Shown here piece after piece: positions 13,038-41,381 of a DNA stretch of 42,635 bases. Every line of letters starts with the position of its first letter. The first letter of the stretch is position 1. The notes under the pieces are model-generated. The model saw nothing but the letters and a program-made list of their open reading frames with translations. It was not told the DNA's origin and searched no databases. Source of the stretch: a virus; the IMG/VR virus record IMGVR_UViG_3300032668_000728, positions 1 to 42,635 of that record. One strand, 5' to 3'. Made by a program: the position numbers and the translations under genes.

Positions 13038-14117
13038 TTGTTTTTCAAACCACTCTGCAGGGTGATGATTTTCGTGTGTGAATGTATATCCAAAACAGCC
13101 CATTGGTACACGTGTGCTGGCTATCAGCGCACTGTTGCGTGCTTGATGTAGTTGCCCTACGTTTTGATCTAGATTAACATCCAACTCTGAAATATAAGGT
13201 TTCCAAAACAGAGGAATATCTTCTACGCACCAACGATGTTCTACACCGTTAGGGTTAGCATTATATAACCATTCAGCCGCGGCATACAAGTTTTGCCAAC
13301 CTTCTCGACGATCAGCATAGCCCACACGTACTTTTAAATCCCGCTCAAAGAATCCATGTGGAACATATAGTGGTGTGCTGATATTAGCCAAAGTCTGTTC
13401 CATGTTTTGATTAACATGACTGTAGCCTTCATAGTGTCGTACCATTTCACGAGTTGGCACATAAATGTTACTAGGACATTTATAGTTAAATACCCAACCC
13501 ATATAGTCTGGTTTGAATACCAATTGGTCACCGTGATCAATTTCCCAATACTTGGTAAACCTACCAGCTTTGAGTATCATAATACCATCAAAGTTTTCCC
13601 ATTGATAGCGAATAAGATTACCGTCTGCTGTTAGTTCACCATTGAAGTGGCGACTCATACGCATCTGTTCTGGCCAGTGACTGTAGATCAACATAGCATC
13701 AGGATCAGGATCAGCATTAAGGTTATCAATGGCCGCTTTGAACATGTTAAGATTGTAGTCTATGAATATGTGATCATCGTTAGCAGCCATCCAAACTAGT
13801 TCGTTGGGATCTGTTAATATTTCTTCACAGGTCTTGCGCCAATGACGAGTAAAGTCATTACGAGCCCATACTATATGAAGTTTATTTTCAGGGAACAAAC
13901 TCTGCATATATTCTTCTAAATCTGCTTGTTGATGCTGGTATTCTGGCGCTAATGTGATATAAAAGTGAAATTTATCTACCAGAGGTTCTAATACCGCTGT
14001 ACTGGCCAAGCAGTATTTAAATACATCCATGCGTTGTGGATTAGGCATCCAGCCGCCGCGTGTATAAGGATATCCCATACGGACATCAGTGATCTTTACG
14101 TTGAATAAGACTTTCAT
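13026..14117 (-). CDS. Glycosyltransferase-like protein
   Basis: This 363-residue protein has a GT-A-like layout. Near residues 110-120 the sequence VWMAANDDHIFIDYN contains an acidic NDDH site in the place of a DxD nucleotide-sugar motif. The remainder is aromatic and has no signal peptide. It is the last gene of the sugar operon that starts at 17582 and follows the GatZ-like aldolase gene with an ATG/TAA overlap. Transfer of a rare sugar onto a surface glycan or virion protein is inferred from context. It could also be a glycan-modifying enzyme of another fold. Confidence 0.6.
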   Translation of the reverse strand: MKVLFNVKITDVRMGYPYTRGGWMPNPQRMDVFKYCLASTAVLEPLVDKFHFYITLAPEYQHQQADLEEYMQSLFPENKLHIVWARNDFTRHWRKTCEEILTDPNELVWMAANDDHIFIDYNLNMFKAAIDNLNADPDPDAMLIYSHWPEQMRMSRHFNGELTADGNLIRYQWENFDGIMILKAGRFTKYWEIDHGDQLVFKPDYMGWVFNYKCPSNIYVPTREMVRHYEGYSHVNQNMEQTLANISTPLYVPHGFFERDLKVRVGYADRREGWQNLYAAAEWLYNANPNGVEHRWCVEDIPLFWKPYISELDVNLDQNVGQLHQARNSALIASTRVPMGCFGYTFTHENHHPAEWFEKQLLK

Positions 14118-15097
14118 TATAGGTTCGTTGTGTAAGTGTCAAAAATTTGATATAAGGCTTGATTGATCTCTGAAGTCCAATCAGCGTGTTGGCTAAGTTG
14201 ATTGATAATGGCCTGATACTCAGCACTGGCAAAACAGTAGTGTCCTGCTACAATGACCTTTTGATCTGCGCTGACACTGTCTGTCCATTTCTTCCAACGA
14301 CCACTATTTAATACCAACTCAGCAAATGCCGTCCATTCATACACACCTATACGGCTTAGGCAAAGTTCTTTTAATAGTTTAGTCTGTACTACCCCTAGCT
14401 GTGGTGCAATGTTCATTGCGTGTACACCTGCCGCACGACGTAGTTTGATTTCTTCTGCTGACAAATAATCAGCATTGTGTTCTTTGAGTTTAACTCCATT
14501 TTCATTGGCCACACGTACTAGGTCTCTGACTGTGTCAATTTCAAATGTGCCAGCTTGATGATCTTCATGACATAGGCTGCCTGTTTGTGCTACTACAAAT
14601 TCAATATTAGGAATGTTTTTAGCAAAGGCCACATCAGCTTTGTATTTGATAGCACCTGCGGCTACACCTACGTTTTCTTCTGTGCCAAACTCAAAACGTA
14701 TGTTAGGATTTAGATCTAAACAGAATTTAAATAGTTCTTCAGCAACACCATAGGTATCTTCTACACGACTAGTGTCAATGTGTATTAGGTCAAAGCCCTG
14801 TTCAATGTCATAGGCTATGGTTTTCTTGGTCGCTTCTACTGCTTTCTTTAGACTAAGACCTTTTTCACTATCTAAAAAATATGGACCGCAATGGTCACGG
14901 CACATCCAAACATTTTCAGTTGGCAAGGTGCTTAGTAGTTGACGCAGTTCAGGTGTGGTCATTACATAGCCACTGTCTGCATCTACTTGATTACGACTTG
15001 CAATAATCATTAAAGGTCTATTTGTATCATGTGTGTAATTACAAATAGCTGTAATTACCTCACGGCTCATTGGCCCAAATCCTAGTCTAAAATCCAT
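14117..15097 (-). CDS. Class II aldolase-like protein (GatZ/KbaZ type)
   Basis: With ATG at 15095-15097 the product is 326 residues. PLMIIASRNQVDADSGYVMTTPE, CRDHCGPYF and FDLIHIDTS match the order of the GatZ/KbaZ family (tagatose-bisphosphate aldolase subunit; its catalytic partner GatY/KbaY is not in the window). The upstream frame opens with a hydrophobic run that is only a shadow of the phosphatase gene, so I reject that start; the chosen ATG has GGGGATTGAAC in front and overlaps the phosphatase TAG. In this operon it may make or break a rare phosphosugar (inferred). Confidence 0.8.
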   Translation of the reverse strand: MDFRLGFGPMSREVITAICNYTHDTNRPLMIIASRNQVDADSGYVMTTPELRQLLSTLPTENVWMCRDHCGPYFLDSEKGLSLKKAVEATKKTIAYDIEQGFDLIHIDTSRVEDTYGVAEELFKFCLDLNPNIRFEFGTEENVGVAAGAIKYKADVAFAKNIPNIEFVVAQTGSLCHEDHQAGTFEIDTVRDLVRVANENGVKLKEHNADYLSAEEIKLRRAAGVHAMNIAPQLGVVQTKLLKELCLSRIGVYEWTAFAELVLNSGRWKKWTDSVSADQKVIVAGHYCFASAEYQAIINQLSQHADWTSEINQALYQIFDTYTTNL

Positions 15098-15557
15098 GTT
15101 CAATCCCCATCCTATCCATAATAATAATGCAAGCATCCATAACAGCACCTTTGCCACCTTCACGACGTGTTACATACGTGGCAGCATTGATAGCAGTTCT
15201 CCAGGCCTGTGCTGGAGCAAAACTTAATCCTACATGTGGCATGATCTTAGCATCATACGGACCGTCGCCCATGAATATAGTTTCCTTTGGATCACCTTTC
15301 TTTAACACAAAATCCAAGCGATCCTTTTCTTTAACCATGGTCAATGGAAACTTCATATGTTCAACTATACGATTATATGTAATACCAAATCCATTTTCAT
15401 CAGCACTAACAAACTCAATGTCTAAGTGACTACGCAATAACTTTAGGCCATCGTGATCATAGTTACCAAAGGCCTTAAAGGGTTTACCAGTTGGTCCCCA
15501 GTAGAGCATACCATCATTTAGTACGCCGTCTACATCTAGAATAAATCTTTTATACAT
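15087..15557 (-). CDS. HAD phosphatase, KdsC-like
   Basis: This 156-residue protein has DVDGVLNDG (nucleophile D8, D10), a serine in VSADE and FMGDGPYDA (D98), the motifs of a haloacid-dehalogenase phosphatase of the small cap-less C0 class typified by KDO-8-phosphate phosphatase (KdsC). It probably removes phosphate from a sugar phosphate before nucleotide activation. It overlaps the aldolase gene downstream and the nucleotidyltransferase-kinase gene upstream. Substrate assignment is inferred from neighbours. It ends in TAG. Confidence 0.85.
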   Translation of the reverse strand: MYKRFILDVDGVLNDGMLYWGPTGKPFKAFGNYDHDGLKLLRSHLDIEFVSADENGFGITYNRIVEHMKFPLTMVKEKDRLDFVLKKGDPKETIFMGDGPYDAKIMPHVGLSFAPAQAWRTAINAATYVTRREGGKGAVMDACIIIMDRMGIEHGF

Positions 15558-17119
15558 TATAATACCTTGCTAAAGTGTAACTGTGCTAGTGCTACTAGGA
15601 ACTTGTCAAACGGTGCTTCATGCAGTGGACTCATGTTCAAGTAGATAATTGGCACAAGTAGTTTAACTTTGCGCCATTCAAGTCCATTAGCATTGACCCA
15701 AGATTCTAAAATGCTTTCATATAGTTTAACATCATTGACACTGGGTACGTCAAGTGTTGCATAGTCATTTAATTCACTATACCCGTACTTCTCATGTTTA
15801 ATGTCTTTGTAGCTTAAGTGAAGTCCGCCTAACATCTTAGCCAAATCATAATACTGGTCACCGTATAGTTCGCCACCAAAGTCAGTGCGCCAATCAATGG
15901 CAGTAAAGCGTCCGCTAACTGGATCATAAATGGTATTATCAAAGTGTAGGTCACCGTGTACAAACTTCCATACAGTTTCTGTAGATAGATATGCCCAATC
16001 AATCTTGCTCAAGTAAGTGTCAATAGTATCTACTTCAACACCGTTGACCACGCATGGTTCTGACCAAGTTGGATATTTGGCACGGAACATTTCAACCCGT
16101 TCCATGGTCTTGTCATAGTAGAACTTATTACAAATGTTAAGCTGGTTTATATCAGCACCGGCATTTAGGTCACCGCTGGTATCTACTGCGTTGATCCATA
16201 GGTTTGTCTTACACCATGCCAACATGTTTTCGTAGAGTGCAGGTGTATATTGATTGTAGACAATGTCGCCATCAGCAAAATCATGTATTAAAAAGTTGCC
16301 GCTCTTACGCACACGATTTGGCATACAGCCCGGGTTGGCCTGAGCACGCTTAACTCTTAGGTCAGCATGTTTAGGATTGGTCCAGAATTTAATGATCTGA
16401 CGGTTGTCGTTATAGAACAATTCGTCTGGCTTAGGGAAACTTACATCAAACAGCTCACTTGATAGTTCTTCCCACTTTTCATAAGTACCAAAGTCTTTCC
16501 ACCCACGTACTGTGTGTGCCTTAAGATCTAAGCCCGCAAAACCTTCTGGAGTTTCTTTAGCACCACGACTAATTAGGTTATCTAAATACTCGTCATCTAC
16601 AGCATACATTAGGCCAATGAAAGCATCAACAGCCGTTTTACTAGCCACTTTGTTCTGTACTTCTGTAATAGTTTCGCCATCACGTTCAATCCAACAGTAG
16701 TCTTGACTGATGTTTGAATCTACAGGATGTACTCCAATCCAGTTGTGATCTAGTTTGTCTTTGTAGTCAAAGTCAAATAGTGTATCACAGGCCAACCACA
16801 TAAATCCACCACGGATATGTTCTTGACACATTTGAATTGTAGTAGCAGGACCTGTATCACCTTCTGCATAGTTGTCAATGTCAACAAACACTACGTTCTT
16901 GTCCTTGTGTACTTCGCTAACATAATCTTTGGTTAGCTGTCCCATGTGTCCGCAGGCAATAACAAATTTAGTGTCACTATCAAACTTACTCATGATGTGA
17001 CTGATCAAAGGTTTATTATCATATGGCACTAGTGCTTTAGGAACCATACGACTAAACTGTCCCATACGGCGACCGTAGCCTGCCGCTAGAATTAATACTG
17101 TTAATGGTTTATTAGACAT
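15557..17119 (-). CDS. Nucleotidyltransferase-kinase fusion
   Basis: This 520-residue protein has two domains. The N-terminal part has LILAAGYGRRMG...PKALVPYDNKPL, the NTP-transferase signature. The C-terminal part has HGDLHFDN (about 388-395) and AIDWRTD, the Brenner motif of aminoglycoside/choline-type kinases. A LicC-LicA-like or sugar-kinase/nucleotidyltransferase arrangement would make a nucleotide-activated sugar or choline in one chain. ATG 17117-17119 is chosen because AAGGA lies about 10 bases upstream, and it overlaps the cupin stop; a TTG at 17131 is the alternative. Confidence 0.85.
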   Translation of the reverse strand: MSNKPLTVLILAAGYGRRMGQFSRMVPKALVPYDNKPLISHIMSKFDSDTKFVIACGHMGQLTKDYVSEVHKDKNVVFVDIDNYAEGDTGPATTIQMCQEHIRGGFMWLACDTLFDFDYKDKLDHNWIGVHPVDSNISQDYCWIERDGETITEVQNKVASKTAVDAFIGLMYAVDDEYLDNLISRGAKETPEGFAGLDLKAHTVRGWKDFGTYEKWEELSSELFDVSFPKPDELFYNDNRQIIKFWTNPKHADLRVKRAQANPGCMPNRVRKSGNFLIHDFADGDIVYNQYTPALYENMLAWCKTNLWINAVDTSGDLNAGADINQLNICNKFYYDKTMERVEMFRAKYPTWSEPCVVNGVEVDTIDTYLSKIDWAYLSTETVWKFVHGDLHFDNTIYDPVSGRFTAIDWRTDFGGELYGDQYYDLAKMLGGLHLSYKDIKHEKYGYSELNDYATLDVPSVNDVKLYESILESWVNANGLEWRKVKLLVPIIYLNMSPLHEAPFDKFLVALAQLHFSKVL

Positions 17120-17582
17120 GCTCTGAATCAATCCTTCCGTGTCCTCTGTTAGCTGAATCTTCTAAGCGGATAACGTCATCTAATTGTGTAGTGCTGGCTT
17201 CTGTGTAGTGTAGATCATCGTAGGCAATCATGCGATGAATAGTACAAGGCGGAGTATGAAATACTGCACCTGGGTCCAATGGTTGTACTATCAGTTCACT
17301 TTTAATCTGTGCAATTTCTTCAGGTGTGTAACCACCAGCTAGATATCGTTCACAGTCAAAAGGTCTAGGATGATATGCTAAGGCGCCTTTGCCAATGTGT
17401 AGGTGAATTGATTCTGATTTGAATTGGTGTACTTGTAAGCTAGTAACAAAACCAGCTTTGAGGATTAGTTCTTTTAGTGCAAATGGGTAAACATCGCTAC
17501 CCCCTTGAAGCCAGGTTTCAGTGCCCCAAGGTTTATGAACAACATGACATTGTTCAAGTGTTTGAAAATCTACAGTCATCAT
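17112..17582 (-). CDS. Cupin protein, sugar-isomerase-like
   Basis: This 156-residue protein has a PWGTETWL start and a cupin core with LQVHQFKSESIHLHIGKGALAYH and PCTIHRMIAYDD, giving the histidines of a metal site. It resembles the cupin half of mannose-6-phosphate isomerases. As first gene of the operon it is likely to act on the hexose phosphate that later steps dephosphorylate or activate. A late box and a sigma70-like promoter overlap 20-50 bases upstream. The catalytic role is inferred. Confidence 0.75.
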   Translation of the reverse strand: MMTVDFQTLEQCHVVHKPWGTETWLQGGSDVYPFALKELILKAGFVTSLQVHQFKSESIHLHIGKGALAYHPRPFDCERYLAGGYTPEEIAQIKSELIVQPLDPGAVFHTPPCTIHRMIAYDDLHYTEASTTQLDDVIRLEDSANRGHGRIDSEHV

Positions 17583-17602
17583 TGACCCCTAGTTGATAAT
17601 AC

Positions 17603-17631
17603 ATTCTACAGTATTTATCGACCAAGGTCAA
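17603..17631 (-). promoter_or_regulatory. Overlapping early and late promoters
   Basis: Sigma70-like TTGACC (17626-17631), 17-base spacer and TAGAAT (17603-17608). A late-type ATAAATA box (17612-17618) lies inside the spacer. Both would drive the sugar operon starting at 17582. Confidence 0.6.
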
Positions 17632-17649
17632 CAGTATTTTTAAATTAGA

Positions 17650-17790
17650 TTAATCACAATCGCTGTATGCTTGGACTAATCTAGCCAAACATTCTCGATC
17701 GCCTGGAGGGCATACATTTGGAATTTCTGGAACTGTTTGTTCTTGTAACGGTTGTAACGGCAGTGTATCTGGTGTTGTAGTGTTTGACAT
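17650..17790 (-). CDS. Small cysteine-containing peptide
   Basis: This 46-residue protein starts at 17788-17790 after AAAGGACATACC. It is proline/threonine-rich at the N-terminus (MSNTTTPDTLPLQPL) and carries three cysteines in the C-terminal half (CPPGDRECLARLVQAYSDCD), suggesting a disulfide or metal site. It follows a leader with both early and late promoters and a strong hairpin. It lies just downstream of the exported lysin gene, so a link to lysis is possible but only by position. Confidence 0.6.
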   Translation of the reverse strand: MSNTTTPDTLPLQPLQEQTVPEIPNVCPPGDRECLARLVQAYSDCD

Positions 17791-17807
17791 GGTATGTCCT
17801 TTAAATT

Positions 17808-17834
17808 AGCAACGGCACTTTTGGCACCGTTGCT
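17808..17834 (-). other. Leader hairpin of the 46-residue gene
   Basis: AGCAACGG pairs perfectly with CCGTTGCT (8 bp, 11-base loop) just upstream of AAAGGA. Late RNA starting downstream of the ATAAATA box would begin inside the 5' arm. Confidence 0.6.
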
Positions 17835-17835
17835 G

Positions 17836-17842
17836 TATTTAT
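17836..17842 (-). promoter_or_regulatory. T4-type late promoter box
   Basis: ATAAATA on the minus strand between the early promoter (17853-17881) and the leader hairpin of the 46-residue gene. Confidence 0.5.
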
Positions 17843-17852
17843 TAAAACACTT

Positions 17853-17881
17853 AGTATACACTACTTTTGAGCAGTTGTCAA
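17853..17881 (-). promoter_or_regulatory. Early sigma70 promoter
   Basis: TTGACA (17876-17881), 17-base spacer, TATACT (17853-17858). The promoter overlaps the last codons of the lysin gene. Its spacer (ACTGCTCAAAAGTAGTG) contains the same CTCAAAA block seen in other early promoters. Confidence 0.75.
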
Positions 17882-18397
17882 TTGTTTTTTTGGAGCAGGA
17901 TCGCTACTGTAAAAGACGTGACTACCTATACGTGCAATACGCATTAATCCCCAATTTGGGTGCGTTTGTGTATTGTGAAAGTACAGTGCTTCAGCCATGA
18001 CTTCATTGTCTAAGCGTAGACCTTGATACATAACTTCTTCTGCCACTGCTAGACTAGCCTGCCAGCGGTCGCTGACAAACTTAACTGGTGCAGGTGGGTT
18101 GCATACCCACGAAAATTGACATACAGTTTTAACCGTAGGTTTATTTTCTTTGACCACTGCTACTTGAGTTTTTTGATTAACTACTCCGCAGACAGTTTTA
18201 GGAAACTTTTCGTCTTCAGCACGATTAAGAGTAACCTGCGCTACTGCTATCATACCTTCACGGGTTTCTAGGCCTGCTTCGTAATAGATATTTTTAGCCA
18301 AACATAATAGTTGACTGTCTTGTTTAGGTGTTGCCAGTGCAGTACTGCACTGTAGAACTGCCAAGGACATTATTGCCCAGGTAACTAGTATTCGCAT
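17861..18397 (-). CDS. Exported SleB/CwlJ-type cell-wall hydrolase (endolysin)
   Basis: This 178-residue protein has an N-terminal signal peptide (about 1-22, cleavage likely after ALA). The hydrolase core follows: LCLAKNIYYEAGLETREGM (likely catalytic E40), VAQVTLNRA, PKTVCGVV, CQFSWVC. These are marks of the SleB hydrolase family that cuts peptidoglycan glycan strands. Sec export would place it in the periplasm without a holin. A very strong AGGAGGAAAAG ribosome-binding site precedes it. It ends with TAG; amber read-through would add about 20 mostly hydrophobic residues. Confidence 0.9.
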   Translation of the reverse strand: MRILVTWAIMSLAVLQCSTALATPKQDSQLLCLAKNIYYEAGLETREGMIAVAQVTLNRAEDEKFPKTVCGVVNQKTQVAVVKENKPTVKTVCQFSWVCNPPAPVKFVSDRWQASLAVAEEVMYQGLRLDNEVMAEALYFHNTQTHPNWGLMRIARIGSHVFYSSDPAPKKQLTTAQK

Positions 18398-18433
18398 ACT
18401 TTTCCTCCTGTTAGTGTTGTCTTGCTGGTTGAA

Positions 18434-18634
18434 CTAGTTTGGTGCCAGACCTGTTGCTTGATTACGGTCTATATAAAATTGACAGGGCTTTGGTAATTCT
18501 CTAACCATTACTAAATCATAATCGTTAAAGTCTGCGTTATTCACTGACATGCTACTGGTGTGTCTATGGCACGTATCGCGTTTATCGCAAGCTCGCCCCG
18601 CACAGTAATACTTCTCCTGTGTAGTTTGTGTCAT
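18434..18634 (-). CDS. Small cysteine-rich protein
   Basis: This 66-residue protein has YYCAGRACDKRDTCHRH and a later PCQFYID, four cysteines and two histidines that could bind zinc or form disulfides. No signal peptide is visible. The start at 18632-18634 follows CGGAGGATTC at a slightly long distance; another ATG nearer the ribosome-binding site leads to a very short frame. It is upstream of the lysin gene and probably shares its transcript. The family is not recognised. Confidence 0.65.
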   Translation of the reverse strand: MTQTTQEKYYCAGRACDKRDTCHRHTSSMSVNNADFNDYDLVMVRELPKPCQFYIDRNQATGLAPN

Positions 18635-18717
18635 TCATGAATCCTCCGAATGTTTAATATATAGTACTAGTGGATCCGCCTTTTACTACATACTTTATTA
18701 ATTTGTTTATGGGATAA

Positions 18718-19551
18718 CTACTCTATTCCTAAAATGTTAGGGTGTTGTTGAAGGAACTTGTGTCTGTAGAAGTTCCAAATGTCGTATAATTCGTCACTAT
18801 TGTGGCGATTTATCAGCACTTTTAGGTCTGAAAGTGCCATAATTTCGTCAATAATTTGGCCATATTTAATTGATACAGTATCAGGTGTATGTTTGTATCC
18901 TATGCTGTCAATATGCTCTAATTCAAGGTAAGTTGGAATCAATCGCTCAATTAAGAATGTAAAGTTTGGTAATGACTTATCGTGTGCATAGTTGCTTAGG
19001 CCAGCACCAAATACCTGATGTTTGAATTCTGGATCTGCATCTGCTTCAGTGAACAGCTTACGAGTAAACTCCATGAACTTAATCCAAAAACTACGACTAC
19101 CAACTATGTAGTTGGCAAACACAGTTGAGTTACGATCTAGTAGCATACCTTTGACTTCGACATCATCATAGCCAACTTTCTTTAAAAACGTGTCGCCAAT
19201 TGTTGAAATGTTTGGGTGATGGAAATCACCTTGTTCCCAACTGTTGGCAAACACTGCTTCATTTAGAATACAGGGATTAAACAGATAAACTTCATGTCCA
19301 GGATTAGCTGTGATAAAATCCAATGCCTGCTGTCCAGAAAGGTTAGTCTTTTCTTTAAACTTCCAACTGACGTAACCCCAATAGTCTAGATCCTGTGCTA
19401 GAATATTGTCGTGTTCACGATCCCATACGTCCCACTCACGTAGTTCTGGGCGTGGATTGGCTGTGTTGTCTAAAGGTTCAAATGCAGGATCGCAGTGTAC
19501 TTTTAATTCTGGCTTAAAGTAAATTTGAAAGATTTTTGTGTTTGTTGACAT
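18718..19551 (-). CDS. Probable sugar-transfer protein
   Basis: This 277-residue soluble protein has the blocks FQIYFKPEL, LDNTANPRPELREWDVWDRE and LDYWGYVSWKF followed by HEVYLFNPC. I do not recognise a standard glycosyltransferase signature, but in composition and position (last of the operon from 25085) it fits a glycosyltransferase-like protein. Its start overlaps the upstream glycosyltransferase gene by 38 bases and it ends in TAG. The role is inferred. Confidence 0.55.
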   Translation of the reverse strand: MSTNTKIFQIYFKPELKVHCDPAFEPLDNTANPRPELREWDVWDREHDNILAQDLDYWGYVSWKFKEKTNLSGQQALDFITANPGHEVYLFNPCILNEAVFANSWEQGDFHHPNISTIGDTFLKKVGYDDVEVKGMLLDRNSTVFANYIVGSRSFWIKFMEFTRKLFTEADADPEFKHQVFGAGLSNYAHDKSLPNFTFLIERLIPTYLELEHIDSIGYKHTPDTVSIKYGQIIDEIMALSDLKVLINRHNSDELYDIWNFYRHKFLQQHPNILGIE

Positions 19552-20296
19552 AATACTCTATATCCTTGGTTAAGTCTCTAGCTCTAGGAATAAATTCATT
19601 CTCTAGTCTATAGGTCAGTGTTTCTCGATTGGTTATATGATGGAACCCGCGATTCTGTATACGATCACTCCACGGTATCTGTGTTTGAATCTGTAGCTTA
19701 CGTGCTAGCTGTCCCTCATCAAACGGGCACCAACCATAGTAAAATACTACCAAATCTTCTGTGTTGTGGTAGTTGTAGTGTCTACCTGGTGCCATACATT
19801 CTTGTGTAGAATTCAATGGATACTGTACAGGTACGTTGTGTATACTGCGACTGCGACGTTCTAGAAAATCTCGTTGACTGTCTTTAAAACTAAATCCCCA
19901 ATGCTTTTGTTCATACAATGGCCTATCATAGGTCACAGTCTGTTCTCTGTTGGTGTCAACAAAAAAGATTGTAGGCAATAGTAACTGTTTAGGGGTATCA
20001 TCTAAGATTGAATAGTCACCAATTATCATCTCTGGCATACACAAACAGATCTTCCAGCCGTCTATTTGTCGTTCAATGTCATTGACTTCTGCATCGCAGT
20101 TGTCTGCTTGAAAGTCTGGGTTACGGCTGGTAATAATATCCCAAGTTGGACATAACTCTTTGATGATTTCCACTGAGCGATCCGTACTGTGATAGTCAAT
20201 CATAACACCATGATCAAAAATCTCACGATGGTGTTTTAACCACCACGGCATCAGATATTCTTCATTGTAAAAATGGCAAAGTATGGTCTTTTTCAT
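19514..20296 (-). CDS. Glycosyltransferase, paralogue of the next gene
   Basis: This 260-residue protein begins CHFYNEEYLMPWWLKHHREIFDHG, followed by STDRSVEIIKELCPTWDI, the start of a GT-A/GT2-like or GT92-like glycosyltransferase where the nucleotide-sugar site would be formed. The upstream gene encodes a clearly related protein with the same opening, so the two arose by tandem duplication and may add successive or different sugars. The ATG overlaps the neighbour's TGA. Confidence 0.75.
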   Translation of the reverse strand: MKKTILCHFYNEEYLMPWWLKHHREIFDHGVMIDYHSTDRSVEIIKELCPTWDIITSRNPDFQADNCDAEVNDIERQIDGWKICLCMPEMIIGDYSILDDTPKQLLLPTIFFVDTNREQTVTYDRPLYEQKHWGFSFKDSQRDFLERRSRSIHNVPVQYPLNSTQECMAPGRHYNYHNTEDLVVFYYGWCPFDEGQLARKLQIQTQIPWSDRIQNRGFHHITNRETLTYRLENEFIPRARDLTKDIEYYVNKHKNLSNLL

Positions 20297-21177
20297 TTGG
20301 GCCTATTCAAGTTTAGAGCATTTTGTAGTGCATCTATAGCTGATTGTATGTGTAAATTTGTTTCAGTGTGTAGCTGTGTTTGTGCTATCTTTTTTTTGGC
20401 TAGATACAATTCGTGTGCTTCTATAATATGTTTGATCTCAGGACGTAGGTCACGACTCATTGGCTGATGTTCTAGTTTAAATCTATCCATCAGCTGTTCT
20501 AATGTAAAGTTATGACTTGATCCACCACCAGGCACTTGTGTTTGTATCTGCATTCTACGTTTAATGCTCTTTTCTTCTAGGCTGGCGCTGGCATAATAGA
20601 ATATAACCAAATCGTTATATGTGCCTTCTTGGCCCCAAAAGTGACGTCCTGTGGTATCATAAGCTATAGGATGGTTGTGTATACTGCGTGGACTGCGTGT
20701 AGGACTGCCAATACTTCTGGCCTTGAACTTTTCCCACTCTGCTTCTGTGCCACCAAATCCCCACCAACGTTGTTCATACAGGGGTCTGTTGTGATCTAAG
20801 AAGTAGGGTTCTTCACGACGTTCCATGTCTACAAAGCTATATTGTGCAGTTAGGATCTGTCTAGGAGTTGGATCATCATCCATGTAACTGTAGTTACCAA
20901 TGATGAACTCAGGAATGTTTAATGCCACACACCACCCTTGCACATCACGTTCAACGTCTACAATTTCACTGTCTACTGGGCCAGCATTGAAATCAGGATT
21001 ACGTGTGTCACGTATTTCCCAAGTTGGACATAACTCTTTAATAATGTCAACGCTACGATCAGTACTGCGATAATTGATCATAATACCATGATCAAAAATC
21101 TCACGGTGATGTTTGAGCCAGAAAGGCAATAGCCATTCTTCGTTATAGAAAATTCCAATTACTGTTTTCTTAGCCAT
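20293..21177 (-). CDS. Glycosyltransferase, paralogue of the previous gene
   Basis: This 294-residue protein starts GIFYNEEWLLPFWLKHHREIFDHG, then RSTDRSVDIIKELCPTWEI, sharing most of its first 60 residues with the 19514-20296 product. It has an extra C-terminal helix of about 35 residues. Probable GT-A fold glycosyltransferase in the surface-sugar operon. The substrate is unknown. It is tightly coupled to the C-methyltransferase gene (ATG/TAA overlap). Confidence 0.75.
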   Translation of the reverse strand: MAKKTVIGIFYNEEWLLPFWLKHHREIFDHGIMINYRSTDRSVDIIKELCPTWEIRDTRNPDFNAGPVDSEIVDVERDVQGWCVALNIPEFIIGNYSYMDDDPTPRQILTAQYSFVDMERREEPYFLDHNRPLYEQRWWGFGGTEAEWEKFKARSIGSPTRSPRSIHNHPIAYDTTGRHFWGQEGTYNDLVIFYYASASLEEKSIKRRMQIQTQVPGGGSSHNFTLEQLMDRFKLEHQPMSRDLRPEIKHIIEAHELYLAKKKIAQTQLHTETNLHIQSAIDALQNALNLNRPK

Positions 21178-22394
21178 TAGTTTACTGTGATAGTTGGAAA
21201 GTACTTAATGAACACATCACCTTCACGGTCACGTTTCTTTTTAATGTTAGCACTGATCTCTTTAAAGAAATTCCAAGCTAAAGGCACAAATGCCACCTTA
21301 ACGTCAGAGTATTGATCTAGTATATCAATGGCAACCACAGGAGTACTCATACCTGGACTGTATAAGCCTTGTTTTAGTGGATTATCATCAATGATATAAT
21401 CTAAATGTATTTCACCAAAGTTAAGTAAGGTATTGCCTTTGGCTGCCGCACCATAGCCCACAATCAAATAGTCTAAGGTACGATAGTGCATGATAGTCTG
21501 TTTAAGATCTTCTACAATAGTAGCGGCACGATCAGCATAGGCAAGATATGTGTTCATGTCCTGTAGCCCTTCAGTGCGTTCAAAATCTAACTGTGCCTGC
21601 ACACTTAATCTGGCACCAGGAACCTTACTCATAACAAACAGGTAACTGTTACCATGGATAGGTGTTTTACGTATGTCTACAATAGTTAGCCCGGCACGAC
21701 GAGCTAGTTCGTTCATGCTGTTAGCATTGAAGAAACTCAAGTGTTCATGATAGATAGTGTCAAACTCATTATTTTTAATCATGTCAGCTTGACTGGTTTG
21801 AATAAACAAACGACTGTCATCATGCATGATTTCTTTACACTGTAACAAAAAGTCCAACGGATAGTCATTATGAGCAAATACGTTTTGTGCTGTGATGATG
21901 TCTAGTTTTTTATTCTTGTAGTGGTAGACATATTTTTCTTTAAAGTAATCACATACTACTTCATGTTCTTTTGAACTTAGTACATGTAGGTTTTCAGCAG
22001 GATCAATACCATAGGTCTTTAGGCCCAGAGCTTTGAAACTATTAAGCTGACTACCATCATTACAAGCAATGTCTAAGACTGTTGTTGGGGTCTCAGCAAA
22101 GTATTCTTGTGTTAGTTTAGCGAACCAATCAAAGTAGTCACGTAAGGTCTGACTTGTACCTGACACATACAGGTAGTTTTTAAATAGCAAATCTGGGTCA
22201 ACAGCATGGCTCAACTGTAGATGAGTACACTCTTCACAGATATTTAAACGAAGTGGAAAATATGGTTCCTCTTCTTCTGCTGTTTTTTTAAAACTATTAG
22301 CCAATGGTTGCTCATTTAAGTCTAAAACTAGTTTTAATCGCTCACTGCCACAGCATAGGCATTCGTTGAGTTCTTTAGCGTTGTTGATAGGCAT
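21177..22394 (-). CDS. Sugar C-methyltransferase (SAM-dependent)
   Basis: This 405-residue protein has an N-terminal zinc site (CLCCGS at 12-17, CEEC at 53-56), a SAM-binding loop (VLDIACNDGS, about 106-115) and a C-terminal half with GYGAAAKGNTLLN and YIIDDNPLKQG. This architecture matches TylC3/NovU-type C-methyltransferases that methylate dTDP-keto-sugars. It would use the keto-sugar made by the dehydratase gene at 24054. It would also release S-adenosylhomocysteine, the substrate of SahH found at 28631 (connection inferred). Confidence 0.85.
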   Translation of the reverse strand: MPINNAKELNECLCCGSERLKLVLDLNEQPLANSFKKTAEEEEPYFPLRLNICEECTHLQLSHAVDPDLLFKNYLYVSGTSQTLRDYFDWFAKLTQEYFAETPTTVLDIACNDGSQLNSFKALGLKTYGIDPAENLHVLSSKEHEVVCDYFKEKYVYHYKNKKLDIITAQNVFAHNDYPLDFLLQCKEIMHDDSRLFIQTSQADMIKNNEFDTIYHEHLSFFNANSMNELARRAGLTIVDIRKTPIHGNSYLFVMSKVPGARLSVQAQLDFERTEGLQDMNTYLAYADRAATIVEDLKQTIMHYRTLDYLIVGYGAAAKGNTLLNFGEIHLDYIIDDNPLKQGLYSPGMSTPVVAIDILDQYSDVKVAFVPLAWNFFKEISANIKKKRDREGDVFIKYFPTITVN

Positions 22395-23304
22395 TTTCTG
22401 GTTCCCAATTATAAATTATATATTTGTCTCTCCATTGCGGAGTTGCTTGTTCGTAATTTTCTATTAGACTGTCTACTATTGTAGCAGGTGTTTCAGTGAA
22501 TGTAAAGTCAAATGTCTGTTCAAACAGTGTGGTATCTAATGCAAAGTCATAGGCATTGGCAGTTATGCCTCGGTCGATGATTTCAGCATTAAGTTTTTGA
22601 CTGACTGCTTGAGCTATAGCGCCTACAGTGCTGTTGAAACTGGCTAGATTGTAAATACCTGCTACTGGTTGTTCAATGCAACGAACTACTGCACGGCATA
22701 GGTCTTCTATGCCCAACATAGCACGGCTAATATGGCGGTTCGTTACCTGTATACCTGTTCCATTCTGCACACTGTGATACATACTGTTGATCATAACATC
22801 AACACGTAGATTAGGACTATAACCGTTCACTGTGCCAAAGCGTAGGCCAATTACCCGACGACCTTTAAGATTAGCAATAGTAGCCTGTTGATCTAATGCG
22901 TATTTTGTTACATCATAGTTGTTAACAGGTGTAAAGTGTGTGTTGGCTTCACTGTGTTGCTCGCCAGGTTTACTATTACCGTAGACACTGGCTGAACTAG
23001 CATAGATAATCAGTTGATTGTCTGTTTTATCTAACAGGTCAGTGAAGTTAGTTACATTGTTTAGCCAAGGACCAGACAGTGCGCCGAGACAGCTAGGCAC
23101 ACTTGGGTGCCCAGCCAAGACCACAATTACTTCAAACTCTGCTAGTTCTTCTCTGGTGTATTTGTGATAGTCACGACGGTTGCTAGTTTCGTCGTGAGCA
23201 AACCAACAGATATCATTGGTTTTAACAAAATGATGTTCACGTAGAACTTGTCGTAGTCTAGATCCAATGTAGCCATTGCCACCTAAGATTAAGATCTTCT
23301 TCAT
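22375..23304 (-). CDS. NAD-dependent sugar epimerase/reductase
   Basis: This 309-residue short-chain dehydrogenase of the extended type has GGNGYIG (8-14), SSASVYG with the catalytic serine, and YDVTKYALD with the Y-x-x-x-K pair. It probably epimerises or reduces an NDP-keto-sugar. The ATG/TGA overlap with the next gene and the 20-base overlap with the methyltransferase gene support one operon. The exact reaction is unknown. Confidence 0.85.
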   Translation of the reverse strand: MKKILILGGNGYIGSRLRQVLREHHFVKTNDICWFAHDETSNRRDYHKYTREELAEFEVIVVLAGHPSVPSCLGALSGPWLNNVTNFTDLLDKTDNQLIIYASSASVYGNSKPGEQHSEANTHFTPVNNYDVTKYALDQQATIANLKGRRVIGLRFGTVNGYSPNLRVDVMINSMYHSVQNGTGIQVTNRHISRAMLGIEDLCRAVVRCIEQPVAGIYNLASFNSTVGAIAQAVSQKLNAEIIDRGITANAYDFALDTTLFEQTFDFTFTETPATIVDSLIENYEQATPQWRDKYIIYNWEPENAYQQR

Positions 23305-24044
23305 CAGTCAATGATCATCATGCCATTAGGTGCAATGTTACCCTGTAGTCCCACAGTTTCAAGTTCAACTAACTTGTCCTTGGGAATAAACTTGGCCATA
23401 GCATGTTCATTGTCAATGTATTTGCCACTGTTGAACAATGGGATCATTGTGCCAATAATATTTTGATATAGTTTTACAGTATCTTCAAATAGATCAGGTG
23501 TAAATGACCATAAGCGAGTTTGTAGTAGTGTGTTTACTCCAGTGTCTGCTGGATTAATCCAACTTGGCTGAGATTTTTTAAACACATATTTGCCTTTGGT
23601 ATCTGCATTGTCAAACTTAGTAATATCAAATTTATCTGTGACTTGATAGCGACCACTTAGTTTGAAAATGCGTGCTGATGCTGAGACTTCATTCATAATG
23701 TCACTGTCGCTGGCAATGTAGTTCAGAGCCTTGAGCATACCCAATGCTTCCATGGCGTTCTTACCAATGTCATAGTTGCTGACATTGTTATGAAAGTATT
23801 TGATATCGTCGTCATCACTGTTGTCAATGTAGTAGTCAACTAGATCAATTAGTTCATTGAACTCATCGCTGTCGTCATTTTGTACATCAACTTTACTGTT
23901 GTCTACTAGAATAACTACAGCGCCAGGAATGTATTGTTTAGCACTTTTAGCAGTTTCTAATGTCTGTGCAATACGTTCTGCTGGCTTATAGATACCATAG
24001 TTGCTGTAAACCGCTGATGTTAGTAATACAATATTTTTACTCAT
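23304..24044 (-). CDS. Putative glycosyltransferase-like protein
   Basis: This 246-residue protein has a mixed alpha/beta start (NIVLLTSAVYSNYGIYKPAERI) and a central SARIFKLSGRYQVTD block, a pattern seen in phage- and LPS-related glycosyltransferases. It is acidic in the middle (DNSDDDDIKYF). It lies between the epimerase and the dehydratase genes. The activity is inferred from location and that short block, so confidence is modest. Confidence 0.55.
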   Translation of the reverse strand: MSKNIVLLTSAVYSNYGIYKPAERIAQTLETAKSAKQYIPGAVVILVDNSKVDVQNDDSDEFNELIDLVDYYIDNSDDDDIKYFHNNVSNYDIGKNAMEALGMLKALNYIASDSDIMNEVSASARIFKLSGRYQVTDKFDITKFDNADTKGKYVFKKSQPSWINPADTGVNTLLQTRLWSFTPDLFEDTVKLYQNIIGTMIPLFNSGKYIDNEHAMAKFIPKDKLVELETVGLQGNIAPNGMMIID

Positions 24045-24053
24045 AATTTTTCC

Positions 24054-25085
24054 TTATTCGCAACGTAACCAGCGTTCATTAGCCAGTGTCCATTGTACTA
24101 CTTCACCAATACGATCTGTTAGACTAACCTTAGGTTCCCAACCTAAACTGCGCATGTAGTCACCGCTGAGAGCATAACGTAGGTCATGTCCTGGGCGTGA
24201 GCTATGGAAGTCAACCATTTCGTACTTCAATTCTTTTCCTTGCGCATCAGCAATGATCTGAGCTAGTTGCAGATTGTTAATTTCTTGTTTGCCTACTAGG
24301 TTAAACTTAGGACATTTAGCATCACCGTAGTCTGGTTCTAGTTTCGTGTCATCTAAGCCCAGCAAGAACAACATAGCATCAGCTACATCTGCCGCATGGA
24401 TATAGTAACGACTACCTGGAATAGTACGACTAGCATCACTGTGAATAGTAATAGTATCTCCATCGTTTACCTTACGAATACACATAGGAATAAACTTCTC
24501 TGGGTGTTGGCGTTGACCAAACACGTTCATTGTATGTGTGATGTAGATAGGCATCTTGTAGGTGTTTTCAAATGCTACTGCTAGTTCTTCACCACCAGCT
24601 TTAGTTGCTGAGTATGGATTTGAACTGTTATAACGATCACGCTCACCATAGTTAACGCCAACTGGTGCTGGACCAAACACTTCATCTGTTGAGAAGTAAA
24701 TGAAACGTTCCAAGTTAGGTAGTTTACGTGCGAACTCTAAGATGTGGCCTGTACCAACAACGTTGTCCCAAACAAATTCCATCGGAAACTCAATACTACG
24801 GTCAACATGTGATCCTGCCGCTAGATGTAACACATAGTTTACATCGCCCACATCACGAGCAACCATTGGGTTAAGTTCTGCACGTAGATCGTGGAATACT
24901 ACTTTGACACGCTTACGAATTTCAGGATCTAATTCCTGTGCCATATCATTTAGGCGATTAAGATTACCTGAGAAGTCCAAACGGTCTAGGCTGACCACAT
25001 TCCAATCTGTTTCTCTTAGGATTTTTTCAATAACGTGGTGTGCAATAAATCCTGCACCGCCAGTCACTAGAACGGTTTTTGACAT
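24054..25085 (-). CDS. dTDP-glucose 4,6-dehydratase-like enzyme
   Basis: With ATG at 25083-25085 (GGAGATATCA upstream) the product is 343 residues; an in-frame ATG at 25097 lies within that ribosome-binding site. The sequence has TGGAGFIAHH (NAD site), FSTDEVFGP (catalytic T, D and E), PYSATKAG (Y-x-x-x-K) and HVDRSIEFP, the RfbB family motifs. It converts an NDP-glucose-like sugar to the 4-keto-6-deoxy form. It is the first gene of the operon that ends at 18718. A late box in a hairpin lies 35-57 bases upstream. Confidence 0.88.
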   Translation of the reverse strand: MSKTVLVTGGAGFIAHHVIEKILRETDWNVVSLDRLDFSGNLNRLNDMAQELDPEIRKRVKVVFHDLRAELNPMVARDVGDVNYVLHLAAGSHVDRSIEFPMEFVWDNVVGTGHILEFARKLPNLERFIYFSTDEVFGPAPVGVNYGERDRYNSSNPYSATKAGGEELAVAFENTYKMPIYITHTMNVFGQRQHPEKFIPMCIRKVNDGDTITIHSDASRTIPGSRYYIHAADVADAMLFLLGLDDTKLEPDYGDAKCPKFNLVGKQEINNLQLAQIIADAQGKELKYEMVDFHSSRPGHDLRYALSGDYMRSLGWEPKVSLTDRIGEVVQWTLANERWLRCE

Positions 25086-25117
25086 TGATATCTCCAAATA
25101 TTGTTGAATTTTGCTGC

Positions 25118-25502: not shown

Positions 25503-26069
25503 TTATAGTTTACCTACTAGATCCAAACTTGGTGCTAGTGTAGCCGCACCTTCTTGCCATTTAGCTGGGCATACTTCACCTGGATGCTCACGTGTATACT
25601 TTGCCGCTTTAACTTTACGTAGCAACTCTTTTGCGTCACGGCCAACACCGCCTGGATTGATTTCAATGATTTGTACACGACCGTCTGGGTCAATAACAAA
25701 TGTACCACGGTCAGCAAGACCTTCACCTTCAATTAGTACACCAAACTGTGTAGCCAATTGATGATTAGGGTCGCCAATCATTGTGTATGTGATGCCGCGG
25801 ATTGTGTCTGTAGCATCTGCCCATGCTTTGTGTACAAAGTGTGTGTCTGTGCTTACGCTGTATACTTCTACCCCCATAGCTTTAAAATCACTTGCATAAA
25901 CGTCTTGTAGGTCTGCTAGTTCTGTTGGGCAGACAAATGTAAAGTCTGCTGGGTAAAAGAACACAATGCTCCATTTACCTTGTAGATCTTGCTCTGTAAC
26001 TTCTACAAACTTGCCTTGACTGTATGCTTGCGCTTTAAACGGTTGTACCTCTTTGCCAATTAAACTCAT
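25503..26069 (-). CDS. ahpC: 2-Cys peroxiredoxin (AhpC type)
   Basis: This 188-residue protein has the peroxidatic centre FTFVCPTEL (C47) and the resolving cysteine in GEVCPAKW (C167), both as in bacterial AhpC. It reduces peroxides; the reductase partner (AhpF) must come from the host. Length is normal. It has its own promoter and terminator. In a phage it is a metabolic helper gene, plausibly protecting infected cells where methanol oxidation or light produces peroxide (inferred). Confidence 0.95.
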
Positions 26070-26122: not shown

Positions 26123-26174
26123 ATTAAATTTTCTTATACCTACCATTAAAAAAATTTATAACCCTTATTCGTGA

Positions 26175-26198
26175 CAAAAGCACCCTGAGGTGCTTTTG
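26175..26198 (-). terminator. Terminator after pqqA
   Basis: Perfect 10-bp stem CAAAAGCACC / GGTGCTTTTG with a CTGA loop, 21 bases past the pqqA stop codon. It isolates pqqA from the peroxiredoxin gene. It lacks a long U-tract beyond the stem (the TTTT is in the stem), so it may be moderate in strength. Confidence 0.75.
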
Positions 26199-26219
26199 CT
26201 TGTGTAGTACGAACAATAA

Positions 26220-26291
26220 TTACTTGTTCATTACATACATTGTTACTTCAAACCCAAAACGCATTTCAGTAGCTGCTGGTTTAGTCCACAT
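26220..26291 (-). CDS. pqqA: PqqA, pyrroloquinoline quinone precursor peptide
   Basis: This is a 23-residue frame. It opens MWTKP, continues with the arginine/phenylalanine core (EMRFGF) and ends EVTMYVMNK. The glutamate at 15 and tyrosine at 19 are exactly where PqqA has the two residues that PqqE cross-links to make PQQ. The order matches known 23-residue PqqA peptides (MW-K-P start, GFEVT-Y). AGGAGATATACT is a good ribosome-binding site. PQQ is the cofactor of methanol dehydrogenases, so the phage may raise the supply of precursor; the modifying genes pqqBCDE are not here and must be host-encoded. A terminator follows and a hairpin lies in the leader. It is far too short for ordinary gene finders. 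Confidence 0.93.
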
Positions 26292-26318: not shown

Positions 26319-26346
26319 AGTACCACAACATTGTTCTGTTGTTACT
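26319..26346 (-). other. Leader hairpin of pqqA
   Basis: On the minus strand AGTA-ACAACA pairs with TGTTGT-GG-TACT (10 bp with a 2-base bulge, loop GAACAA), about 28 bases upstream of the start codon. A clear consensus promoter is not visible in 26292-26414; TATATG/TATAAG near 26354-26364 are weak candidates. A 12-base palindrome lies at 26397-26408. Confidence 0.5.
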
Positions 26347-26414
26347 AGTACTTATACATATAGTAACACCAAAAACGCCTAAAAAACATACTGAAAATCA
26401 TTAATGATAGATAG

Positions 26415-27344: not shown

Positions 27345-27418
27345 TGGTGCAGTTGACGGGAGTCAAACCCGTTACCAGGAGTTTTAGAGGCTCTTGCTAT
27401 TCGATCAGCTTCAACTGC
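27345..27418 (-). tRNA. tRNA or tRNA-like RNA with anticodon CUA
   Basis: A 74-base cloverleaf with encoded CCA. Acceptor stem GCAGTTG/CAACTGC is perfect and the discriminator is A. The T arm ACGGG-TTTGACT-CCCGT is perfect and the D arm GCTG-ATCGAA-TAGC is short. By standard numbering the anticodon loop is CTCTAAA, giving CUA, which reads the amber codon UAG. The anticodon stem is weak (A-C mismatches at 27-43 and 31-39), position 8 is A instead of U, and 19/56 is A/U instead of G/C. It is transcribed from a consensus promoter whose start point falls 2-3 bases before the 5' end. Some identity details are inferred. Confidence 0.75.
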
Positions 27419-28630: not shown

Positions 28631-29917
28631 TTAGTACCTGTATGTTTCTGGTTTGTAAGGACCATCAATACCAACACTGATATAATCAGCCTGCTCATCT
28701 GTTAAAGTAGTTAGTTTAGCACCAATCTTATCTAAATGCAACCTTGCTACCTTTTCATCTAGATGTTTTGGTAAAAGATATAACTGACCAATTTCATAAT
28801 TGGTATAGTTAGTGTACATTTCAACTTGTGCTAATACTTGATTAGTAAAGCTGTTTGACATAACATAACTAGGATGTCCTGTAGCACAGCCCAAGTTTAC
28901 TAGTCGACCTTTAGCTAAAATAATCAACTTGTGTCCACCTGGCATTGTAACGTGATCAACCTGTGGTTTGATTTCATCCCACTCACAGTCTTTAAGACTA
29001 GCAATGTCAATCTCGCTGTCAAAATGTCCAATGTTACAGATAATAGCATTGTTCTTCATACGTTCCATGTGTTCGTATGTAATAACATCAATATTACCTG
29101 TGGCTGTTACAAAGATATCTGCTTCACTGGCCGCTTCATCCATGGTAACCACACGATAGCCTTCCATAGCCGCTTGTAGGGCACAGATTGGATCAATCTC
29201 AGTTACCCAAACCTGTGCTGATAATGCACGAAGTGCGGCTGCTGATCCTTTGCCCACATCGCCAAAGCCCGCTACTACTGCGATCTTACCTGCAATCATC
29301 ACATCGGTAGCACGTTTGATACCATCTACTAATGACTCACGGCAACCATATAAGTTATCAAACTTACTTTTAGTTACGCTGTCGTTAACGTTGATAGCAC
29401 GTAGTTTAAAACTACCGTTGGCAATAGCTTCGTTGATCTTGTGAATACCTGTGGTTGTTTCTTCAGTAACACCATAGATACCATCCAGTAGTTCAGGATA
29501 GTTAGTGTGAATATACCAAGTTAGGTCATGGCCATCATCTAAGATCATGTTAGGTACCCAACCCTCTTTGCCACTAATAGTCTGCTCAATACACCACCAG
29601 TATTCGTCTTCTGTTTCACCTTTCCAAGCGTAGACAGGAATACCCTGTTCAGCTAAGGCTGCTGCCGCATGGTCTTGTGTGCTAAAGATGTTACAACTTG
29701 ACCAACGCACTTCTGCGCCTAAGGCCACTAGTGTTTGTACTAAGACTGCTGTCTGTATAGTCATATGTAATGACCCAACAATACGTGCGCCCTTTAGTGG
29801 TTGCTGATAGTACAGCTCATCTTTGATTGCCATTAGACCTGGCATTTCTGTTTCAGCAATAGCTATTTCTTTGTGGCCCCACGCGGCCAAACTAATATCT
29901 TTTACTTTATAATCCAT
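28631..29917 (-). CDS. ahcY: S-adenosylhomocysteine hydrolase
   Basis: This 428-residue enzyme splits S-adenosylhomocysteine to adenosine and homocysteine. Family marks are present: [28 protein letters not shown], the NAD-binding [16 protein letters not shown] and the C-terminal PYKPETYRY. The length is normal for the short bacterial type. It supports SAM-dependent methylation, and the window holds a sugar C-methyltransferase and a second methyltransferase that make its substrate. The start overlaps the stop of a small gene (TAATG). It looks intact and probably acquired from a bacterium; it fits the one-carbon theme. Confidence 0.97.
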
Positions 29918-34831: not shown

Positions 34832-35086
34832 TTATAGATCTGCCACTAGAACCATTTTGGATTTTGGATATTCAGCTAATGGTTCTGGCAATATATAAAA
34901 TTCATAGTTAGATGGATATACAATAACAGCATTGTCTGGAAACTTTTCAGTCATTTGTTCGTGAATATCATTCATATATTCACCGGCTGCTTCTTTAGTC
35001 ATCTCACTAGTGTCAACTTTGATTAGAACCTTGTCACCTTTATTAAGTGTAGGAAAAATCGTTGGGGTTACTTCTGTAATATTCAT
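34832..35086 (-). CDS. Small hypothetical protein next to uvsX
   Basis: This 84-residue protein starts MNITEVTPTIFPTLNKGDKVLIKVD and ends YILPEPLAEYPKSKMVLVADL. It is a compact alpha/beta sequence with no catalytic motif. Its ATG overlaps the uvsX stop (ATGA), so it is coupled to the recombinase. No family is recognised. Confidence 0.65.
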   Translation of the reverse strand: MNITEVTPTIFPTLNKGDKVLIKVDTSEMTKEAAGEYMNDIHEQMTEKFPDNAVIVYPSNYEFYILPEPLAEYPKSKMVLVADL

Positions 35087-36198
35087 TCTTCGTCTCCTTG
35101 TAATACTGGTTCGTTGACTGATGCAATCTCAAGATCACTATCATCAACGTCAGTAGTTTCAGTACTTAGCAATAGATTAGCATTACCTGAAATTTCTGCC
35201 ATAACTCGGTCCAGGCATCCATCTTCGTTCTTTTCCCATGCTTTACGGAATTTCTTAATGATAGAACCATCAGCAAACTTATAAACCAGACTATTACCTT
35301 CTTTAGTTAATAGACCCTTGCCTTCTAACATATCTACCATACCACTGTAAGGACTCATACCAGTTTCATACGGAATCTCTACTTGTACACTTTCAAAAGG
35401 TTTAGCATAACGTGTTTTCATAATCTTACAAGCAGCACGAATACCGTGTACTTCGCTGGTCTTATTACCATCAGCGTCTGTTTTAAGTTTAAGTTTACGC
35501 ATAGCTACAACAATACTTGAAGCATAGATAAAGCCTTGACCACCTGAAATCTTATCATCTGGGTCAAACATATCCTGACTTGCGTATGTGTGATTAGTTG
35601 CTACTAGGCCTAGGTTTAATGTACCAAACATGTTTACACAGTTGCGAACAAGTGCTGTAAGTGCTTTAGGTTTACGACCCATATCACCTTTCATTTCACC
35701 TGCTTCAAACTGATTAACGTCTGTTGGAGTTAACATCATACCTAGCGAATCAAGTACAAACAGGACCTTAGGACGATCTGCTTCGTCAAGTGTGCGATAC
35801 TCTTTAACAAAGTCGCTAATAACCTTGGCTACATCGTCAATCATAGCCATGTTCAGTTTTAGCAATTTTTCCTCTGAAGTGTCTACTCCTAACGCATGTA
35901 ACCAAGCCTCATCAAGTGCGTTTTCTGTATCAATTAAGATTACATAAATGCCTTGCTCTTGTGCGTGACGGATAATGTTACCTGAACAGATAAATGATTT
36001 ACCTGCGCCAGATTCACCAGCAAACACAGTTACCTTACCTAAGGGAATACCTTTGTTAAAGTCACCGCTTAATAGATAATTTAATGTGTAGTTGCCTGTT
36101 GAGATCCAATCCGTTGGATCATTAAAGCCAATGCCCATACCTGGGATAGCTTTGGTAATACTCTTTCTGAATTTACTAATGTCGTATGGTTTTGCCAT
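35083..36198 (-). CDS. uvsX: UvsX RecA-like recombinase
   Basis: This 371-residue strand-exchange protein has Walker A GESGAGKS (61-68), VLFVLDSLGMML (Walker B), DDKISGGQGF and ATNHTYAS, the T4 UvsX/RecA core. It forms filaments on ssDNA with help from UvsY and gp32, all encoded within 4 kb. The acidic C-terminal tail is short. AAAGGATAACTCAAC is the ribosome-binding site. A hairpin separates it from gp32, which is upstream in the same direction. Confidence 0.95.
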   Translation of the reverse strand: MAKPYDISKFRKSITKAIPGMGIGFNDPTDWISTGNYTLNYLLSGDFNKGIPLGKVTVFAGESGAGKSFICSGNIIRHAQEQGIYVILIDTENALDEAWLHALGVDTSEEKLLKLNMAMIDDVAKVISDFVKEYRTLDEADRPKVLFVLDSLGMMLTPTDVNQFEAGEMKGDMGRKPKALTALVRNCVNMFGTLNLGLVATNHTYASQDMFDPDDKISGGQGFIYASSIVVAMRKLKLKTDADGNKTSEVHGIRAACKIMKTRYAKPFESVQVEIPYETGMSPYSGMVDMLEGKGLLTKEGNSLVYKFADGSIIKKFRKAWEKNEDGCLDRVMAEISGNANLLLSTETTDVDDSDLEIASVNEPVLQGDEE

Positions 36199-41377: not shown

Positions 41378-41381
41378 ACTG

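Follow-up and report, generated by a model that had tools for sequence, protein, structure and literature searches.

A standalone pqqA gene in a T4-like phage record and its recurrence in phages of methylotrophs

Phage-borne PqqA, the precursor peptide of pyrroloquinoline quinone (PQQ), was published in 2020 for VP_266, a population of T4-like Methylophilaceae phages in Lake Baikal that also carries methanol dehydrogenase (Coutinho et al. 2020, PMC7678222). A 2026 study of reservoir sediment counted viral pqqA among phosphate-solubilisation genes (PMC13188868). On the host side, pqqA is present in multiple copies in Methylophilaceae (3-12), whereas the remaining pqq genes are single (PMC4109929). 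A text search of the OM43-phage papers PMC9004378, PMC10580990, and PMC8024684 returned no pqqA, and PQQ appears there only as a medium component, at 1 nM in PMC9004378; a search of PMC8163748 likewise did not return 'pqqA'.

The stretch of DNA analyzed here, referred to as the window, comprises the 42,635 bases of an IMG/VR virus record. It is a further case of phage-borne pqqA, already published once in a methylotroph phage. The recurrence of the gene across unrelated methylophages, its tracking of the host, and its match to the multiplication of pqqA in host genomes were not found in the literature searched.

The pqqA gene and its control signals

A first-pass annotation had placed a 23-codon PQQ precursor frame at 26220-26291 and had left its strand unstated. 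The coordinates hold, and the gene lies on the minus strand; the plus-strand reading of the same bases was discarded, as it has no family match. The gene and the signals around it are as follows.

26220-26291, minus strand: pqqA, a 23-codon gene for the PQQ precursor peptide with Glu15 and Tyr19, matching PF08042 and TIGR02107
26299-26303, minus strand: Shine-Dalgarno sequence AGGAG, 8 nt before the ATG of pqqA
26174-26199, minus strand: terminator-like hairpin (11-bp stem) that starts about 20 nt downstream of the pqqA stop
26341-26367, minus strand: upstream element GTTACTA-TATGTATAAGTAC-TAGTAAC, an inverted repeat around TATAAGTA at 26349-26356

The minus-strand translation reads E15-V-T-M-Y19, with the Glu and Tyr at the positions that the annotation had named. 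These are the residues that become PQQ, and the ExxxY arrangement that they form in PqqA is invariant in 175 viral sequences. A profile search, which the annotation had proposed as a check, placed the peptide above the curated cut-offs of both families. Pfam PF08042 gives 42.4 bits (cut-off 21.1, E = 6.4e-11, model positions 1-19 of 19), and TIGR02107, the NCBI equivalog, gives 40.4 bits (cut-off 20, model positions 1-21 of 21). A six-frame search of the whole record detected PqqA at this one place only, and a six-frame search of 14 control genomes gave no match. The match at 26220-26291 is not due to chance, and its identity as a genuine phage-borne pqqA is close to certain.

The good ribosome-binding site that had been claimed is the AGGAG listed above. 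A 4-base Shine-Dalgarno match precedes 215 of 228 viral copies of pqqA and 125 of 127 bacterial copies. The terminator reported 21 bases past the stop corresponds to the hairpin at 26174-26199, which together with its flanks has a folding energy of -21.3 kcal/mol (z = -5.0) that was matched by no shuffle. That part of the claim stands, although a strict scan for simple terminators misses the hairpin because the U run lies inside the stem. The inverted repeat at 26341-26367 is a candidate promoter, operator, or leader hairpin and may constitute pqqA's own control region. Approximately 115 nt upstream of the window pqqA is conserved at 80-86% with the pqqA loci of four viral contigs (L308, L342, L362, and L363), whereas conservation of the same stretch with pqqA of record G088 (L539) is weak, at 68%. 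The inverted repeat falls within this stretch. The TATAAGTA box was considered as a general late promoter of the phage but found no support: it matches the window only twice, upstream of pqqA and at one place on the plus strand. TATAAT boxes are enriched upstream of viral pqqA (76 of 194, versus about 42 in shuffled sequence) and depleted upstream of bacterial pqqA (4 of 125, versus about 20), a pattern that is suggestive, the shuffles having kept base composition only. About 1 kb upstream of pqqA lies a tRNA gene (27348-27418, minus strand; 45.8 bits with Rfam, missed by ARAGORN), and a tRNA gene also adjoins pqqA in Melnitz.

The coding sequence itself appears constrained. Among 175 distinct viral pqqA DNA sequences, synonymous sites are near saturation and pN/pS amounts to 0.21; no variation is seen at W, P, R, G, F, E, V, T, and Y. 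By these measures, viral pqqA is under purifying selection. Exactly the window peptide is encoded by 26 bacterial copies, almost all from genomes named as Methylophilaceae or betaproteobacteria; one of the 26, in a Methylotenera contig (L139), lies directly beside pqqBCDE. Because the peptide is identical to these host copies, the PqqE and PqqD of Methylophilaceae should accept it. At the DNA level, the nearest copies match at 69 of 72 bases and comprise three bacterial copies and two viral contigs.

The phage around pqqA

The following genes define the setting of pqqA in the window.

39815-41443, minus strand: terminase large subunit (TerL, T4-type), 55.8% identical to PA5oct-type jumbo phages, the closest group
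35083-36198, minus strand: UvsX-like recombinase, a hallmark of T4-like phages
28631-29917, minus strand: full-length S-adenosylhomocysteine (SAH) hydrolase of the SAM cycle, 80-86% identical in several large relatives
25503-26069, minus strand: peroxiredoxin, the next gene after pqqA on the same strand; a sigma70-like promoter of its own lies at 26122-26093
7135-8754, minus strand: full-length formate-tetrahydrofolate ligase (FTHFS) of one-carbon metabolism, belonging to a viral clade with 78-92% identity

The record is that of a phage, because it encodes a terminase large subunit and UvsX; a UvsW-like helicase and a homing endonuclease are also present. With related records reaching 201-354 kb and a terminase nearest to those of the PA5oct jumbo phages, the window probably represents only part of a far longer T4-like phage genome. 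As far as can be judged from these genes and the substitution pattern, pqqA has the properties of an auxiliary metabolic gene, in that it lies in a genuine phage genome and is a host homologue under function-keeping selection. The region at 13026-25097 on the minus strand is a nucleotide-sugar and surface-sugar block that is unusually long for a phage and includes an NTP transferase, epimerases, glycosyltransferases, and a C-methyltransferase.

FTHFS and SAH hydrolase possibly cooperate with pqqA and, if the host is a methylotroph, would act downstream of methanol oxidation; neither is specific to pqqA carriers. The roughly 30 viral relatives of the window FTHFS, which come from large T4-like records, group as a clade of phage enzymes. 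The Methylophilaceae enzymes, to which the window FTHFS is 55-60% identical, are distinct from this viral group. Both enzymes were rejected as proof of a methylotroph host, as both are common in relatives without pqqA. For FTHFS, this follows from the absence of pqqA in all 29 FTHFS-bearing relatives of the window. Naming the host by ortholog identity was also abandoned, as identity to the Methylophilaceae proteins is only 54-62% for the peroxiredoxin and FTHFS. We infer that the window phage probably infects a methylotroph, perhaps one of the Methylophilaceae; that its closest relatives are mostly without pqqA counts against this.

Recurrence of pqqA in phages of methylotrophs

A collection of 50,697 phage records was searched by tblastn with PqqA. 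Twelve records match: nine from Methylophilales phages (Venkman, P19250A, MEP301, MEP401, MEP402, and four Melnitz isolates), one from ctXG6705, a metagenomic podovirus related to Venkman, and two that are mislabelled bacterial contigs. The latter are Acinetobacter chromosomal contigs with pqqABCDE that were filed as phage; L008 (CAKLQF020000010), named Acinetobacter phage MD-2021a, was rejected on these grounds. All nine Methylophilales-phage records recovered, which represent five lineages, carry pqqA; the figure refers to those recovered, and the taxonomy also contains methylophages unseen in the collection (MEP431-434, phiMB624-A, and others). The first-pass annotation had predicted that gene callers would overlook so small a gene, and it is indeed unannotated in Venkman, P19250A, MEP301, and MEP401/402. 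In Melnitz and ctXG6705, pqqA is overlaid by antisense 'hypothetical protein' ORFs; these ORFs (L002/L007; ctXG6705, Melnitz-1) are probably spurious and hide the gene.

The cultured lineages that carry pqqA have only 0-5 proteins in common in pairwise comparisons. The window has no proteins in common with four of them and four, at about 30% identity, with Melnitz. The cultured phages most closely related to Melnitz, Venkman, and MEP301 have SAR11 as their host, and these SAR11 phages are absent from the pqqA matches in the 50,697 records. The gene therefore follows the host and not the phage lineage. Because single-linkage clustering on stop-to-stop ORFs lumped almost all contigs together, it was left out of the lineage count.

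Carriers in IMG/VR were located using degenerate DNA patterns for the PqqA peptide. The GFEVTMY pattern matched at least 120 stretches, and all 80 that were inspected are PqqA. The pattern for peptides ending in VTLY matched 115, of which 111 were PqqA at first pass, one (L355) is a longer variant, and three are not PqqA. A pattern for alphaproteobacterial-type PqqA gave three matches only. The final extraction comprises 228 viral pqqA copies, with more than 200 IMG/VR contigs represented. About half of the viral peptides (for example, L252-L366) end in VTLYVMNR/K and not in VTMYVMNK; the pattern used for the bacterial scan required M. Records with an enterobacterial-type PqqA (MWKKPAFIDMRLGLEVTLYISNR; L266, L269, L288, L290, L294, L301, L331, and others) were set aside as probable prophage flanks, the match lying near the record end in most, typically within a few hundred bases of the end of a prophage record. 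In L290, this pqqA adjoins the start of a TonB receptor. Such copies are probably host flank, and an integration site possibly lies near pqqA.

The breadth of this distribution bears on whether the gene was captured passively, as a chance host fragment, or represents host DNA in the assembly. Homology to host copies reaches slightly past the gene, for example in L206 and L147, which points to a host origin, and two of the matches in the phage collection are truly bacterial contigs. However, more than 200 contigs carry pqqA, as do complete genomes of cultured phages, the DNA upstream of it is conserved between related phages, the gene is under purifying selection, and its surroundings in the window are those of a phage. 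Capture without function, or contamination, is therefore very improbable.

The peroxiredoxin gene raises a different alternative, namely that the peptide does serve PQQ but helps the phage through antioxidant or redox protection instead of methanol oxidation. A peroxiredoxin gene comes after pqqA on the same strand not only in the window but also in five further viral contigs (L308, L342, L362, L363, and L037). Most other carriers, among them Venkman, P19250A, and MEP301, are nevertheless without an annotated peroxiredoxin neighbour, and the distribution tracks methylotrophs, not PQQ producers generally, as the scarcity of alphaproteobacterial-type matches in IMG/VR illustrates. We regard a purely protective benefit as unlikely.

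The annotation had also suggested looking for pqqA in related phage genomes, and the outcome is divided. The gene recurs in methylophages, including five of six Venkman-type records of at least 20 kb, and it is rare among the closest relatives of the window. Only one of 31 long T4-like records with a window-related terminase, G088 (201 kb), carries it, and in the window's own clade pqqA is, for this reason, a sporadic accessory gain. The pqqA of G088 (L539) encodes a variant peptide, and a terminator-like sequence lies between it and a radical SAM gene about 100 bp downstream (L539:4798-5853). This arrangement would fit a peptide that is the core of another modified product made by a radical SAM enzyme. 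The enzyme, however, is also encoded by relatives that yielded no pqqA match, the terminator-like sequence separates the two genes in G088 itself, and no match to the G088 enzyme was found in the window. A product other than PQQ thus has very little probability.

A precursor carried without its pathway

As the first-pass annotation had noted, no pqqBCDE gene was recognised among the ORFs scanned in the window; the same scan recognised no methanol dehydrogenase. PqqE is above cut-off in none of 50 long pqqA-bearing viral records, and pqqBCDE lies beside pqqA at one of 238 viral loci, a contig-edge fragment, versus 29 of 120 bacterial loci. The arrangement of pqqA with pqqBCDE, though usual for the gene, was thus not recognised in the window, and it is not required: nearly all viral copies, like most Methylophilaceae copies, are orphans. 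A PQQ-dependent methanol dehydrogenase occurs in one of the same 50 long records. This record, L050 (IMG/VR, 72 kb, G010), encodes an enzyme of the methanol/ethanol type and resembles the published Baikal case.

A peptide carried alone, never with PqqE, could in principle act as a decoy or brake, a substrate look-alike being sufficient to occupy PqqD/PqqE or flood the pathway; less functional PQQ and slower methanol and formaldehyde flux would result. Against this, neither the two reacting residues nor any part of the recognition core varies among 175 distinct viral genes, and many of the peptides equal host PqqA. Such a host-like peptide would be processed rather than stalled, and the single record that pairs pqqA with methanol dehydrogenase fits a boost. 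Inhibition by the peptide is accordingly improbable.

Host genomes show a corresponding bias in gene dosage. Of 150 Methylophilaceae genomes, 149 have pqqA, in 1-12 copies; of 18 such genomes, 16 have one pqqE and one has two, with none found in the remaining genome. A PQQ-producing methylotroph has likewise been described with five pqqA copies, unequally expressed (PMC9851590). One PqqA peptide is consumed for each PQQ made, whereas PqqBCDE are reusable catalysts. We consider it likely that a standalone phage pqqA restocks this stoichiometrically consumed precursor for the PqqE/D/B/C of the host and sustains methanol oxidation. In the proposed mechanism, the phage peptide would be a substrate of the host's single-copy PqqE/PqqD, which would crosslink Glu15 to Tyr19. 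Host PqqB/C and proteases would then complete PQQ, the cofactor of the XoxF/MxaF methanol dehydrogenases. As host transcription falls during infection, the peptide would be the part that runs out, because it is consumed with each PQQ while the enzymes can be reused. Expression of the phage gene in infected cells may thereby raise precursor supply to the benefit of the phage. To keep PQQ synthesis and methanol oxidation running for phage production, 72 bp would be enough, the gene having an upstream element, a ribosome-binding site, and a terminator of its own.

Published results temper this picture. Overexpressing pqq genes has often brought only a modest increase in PQQ, so that PqqA need not be limiting in every setting, and in the PQQ-producing methylotroph with five copies pqqE rose together with pqqA (PMC9851590).

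Nonetheless, the family assignment, the host-identical peptide, the phage record, and the methylotroph-tracking distribution support the earlier reading of pqqA as a helper gene of methylotroph phages. A stronger proposal is that pqqA alone is a convergent, near-obligatory adaptation to Methylophilaceae, with at least five to six unrelated lineages each having gained the consumed component as they became phages of methylotrophs; we give it even chances. If it is correct, a ribosomal peptide that serves as cofactor precursor would be a metabolic bottleneck of the infected methylotroph. If the restocking role is correct, phages of abundant methanol consumers (OM43 and its freshwater relatives) would replenish a cofactor precursor and link infection to methanol turnover in the sea and in lakes. 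The proposal is unusually testable, as cultured pairs already carry the unannotated gene (Venkman and Melnitz on H5P1, the MEP phages, and P19250A). The gene also exposes a systematic blind spot, in that annotation pipelines miss metabolic genes under about 30 codons, and pqqA, if near-universal, could be used as a short marker for Methylophilaceae phages.

Comparison with known systems

The closest described case is that of the Baikal populations VP_266 and VP_139 (PMC7678222). As in the window, the phage is T4-like, SAM-cycle genes are present, and PqqA was read as support for methanol oxidation. The Baikal populations encode methanol dehydrogenase, whereas the window instead encodes a peroxiredoxin, FTHFS, and SAH hydrolase. 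PqqA was described there in one population, and recurrence across phage lineages was not reported. Venkman, P19250A, MEP301, MEP401/402, and Melnitz resemble the window in carrying pqqA; they have little or no other homology to it, and the gene is not annotated as pqqA in them. The orphan pqqA genes of Methylophilaceae (PMC4109929; Methylovorus) are like the phage copy in standing alone, far from pqqBCDE, and in encoding identical peptides. They differ in being chromosomal and in having promoter regions without the TATAAT-type box for which viral copies are enriched. A broader parallel is offered by cyanophage genes of the psbA type, which let a phage resupply a host component that is lost by turnover and would be exhausted during infection. 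In cyanophages, that component is a photodamaged protein, whereas phage pqqA encodes the consumed peptide substrate of a cofactor pathway.
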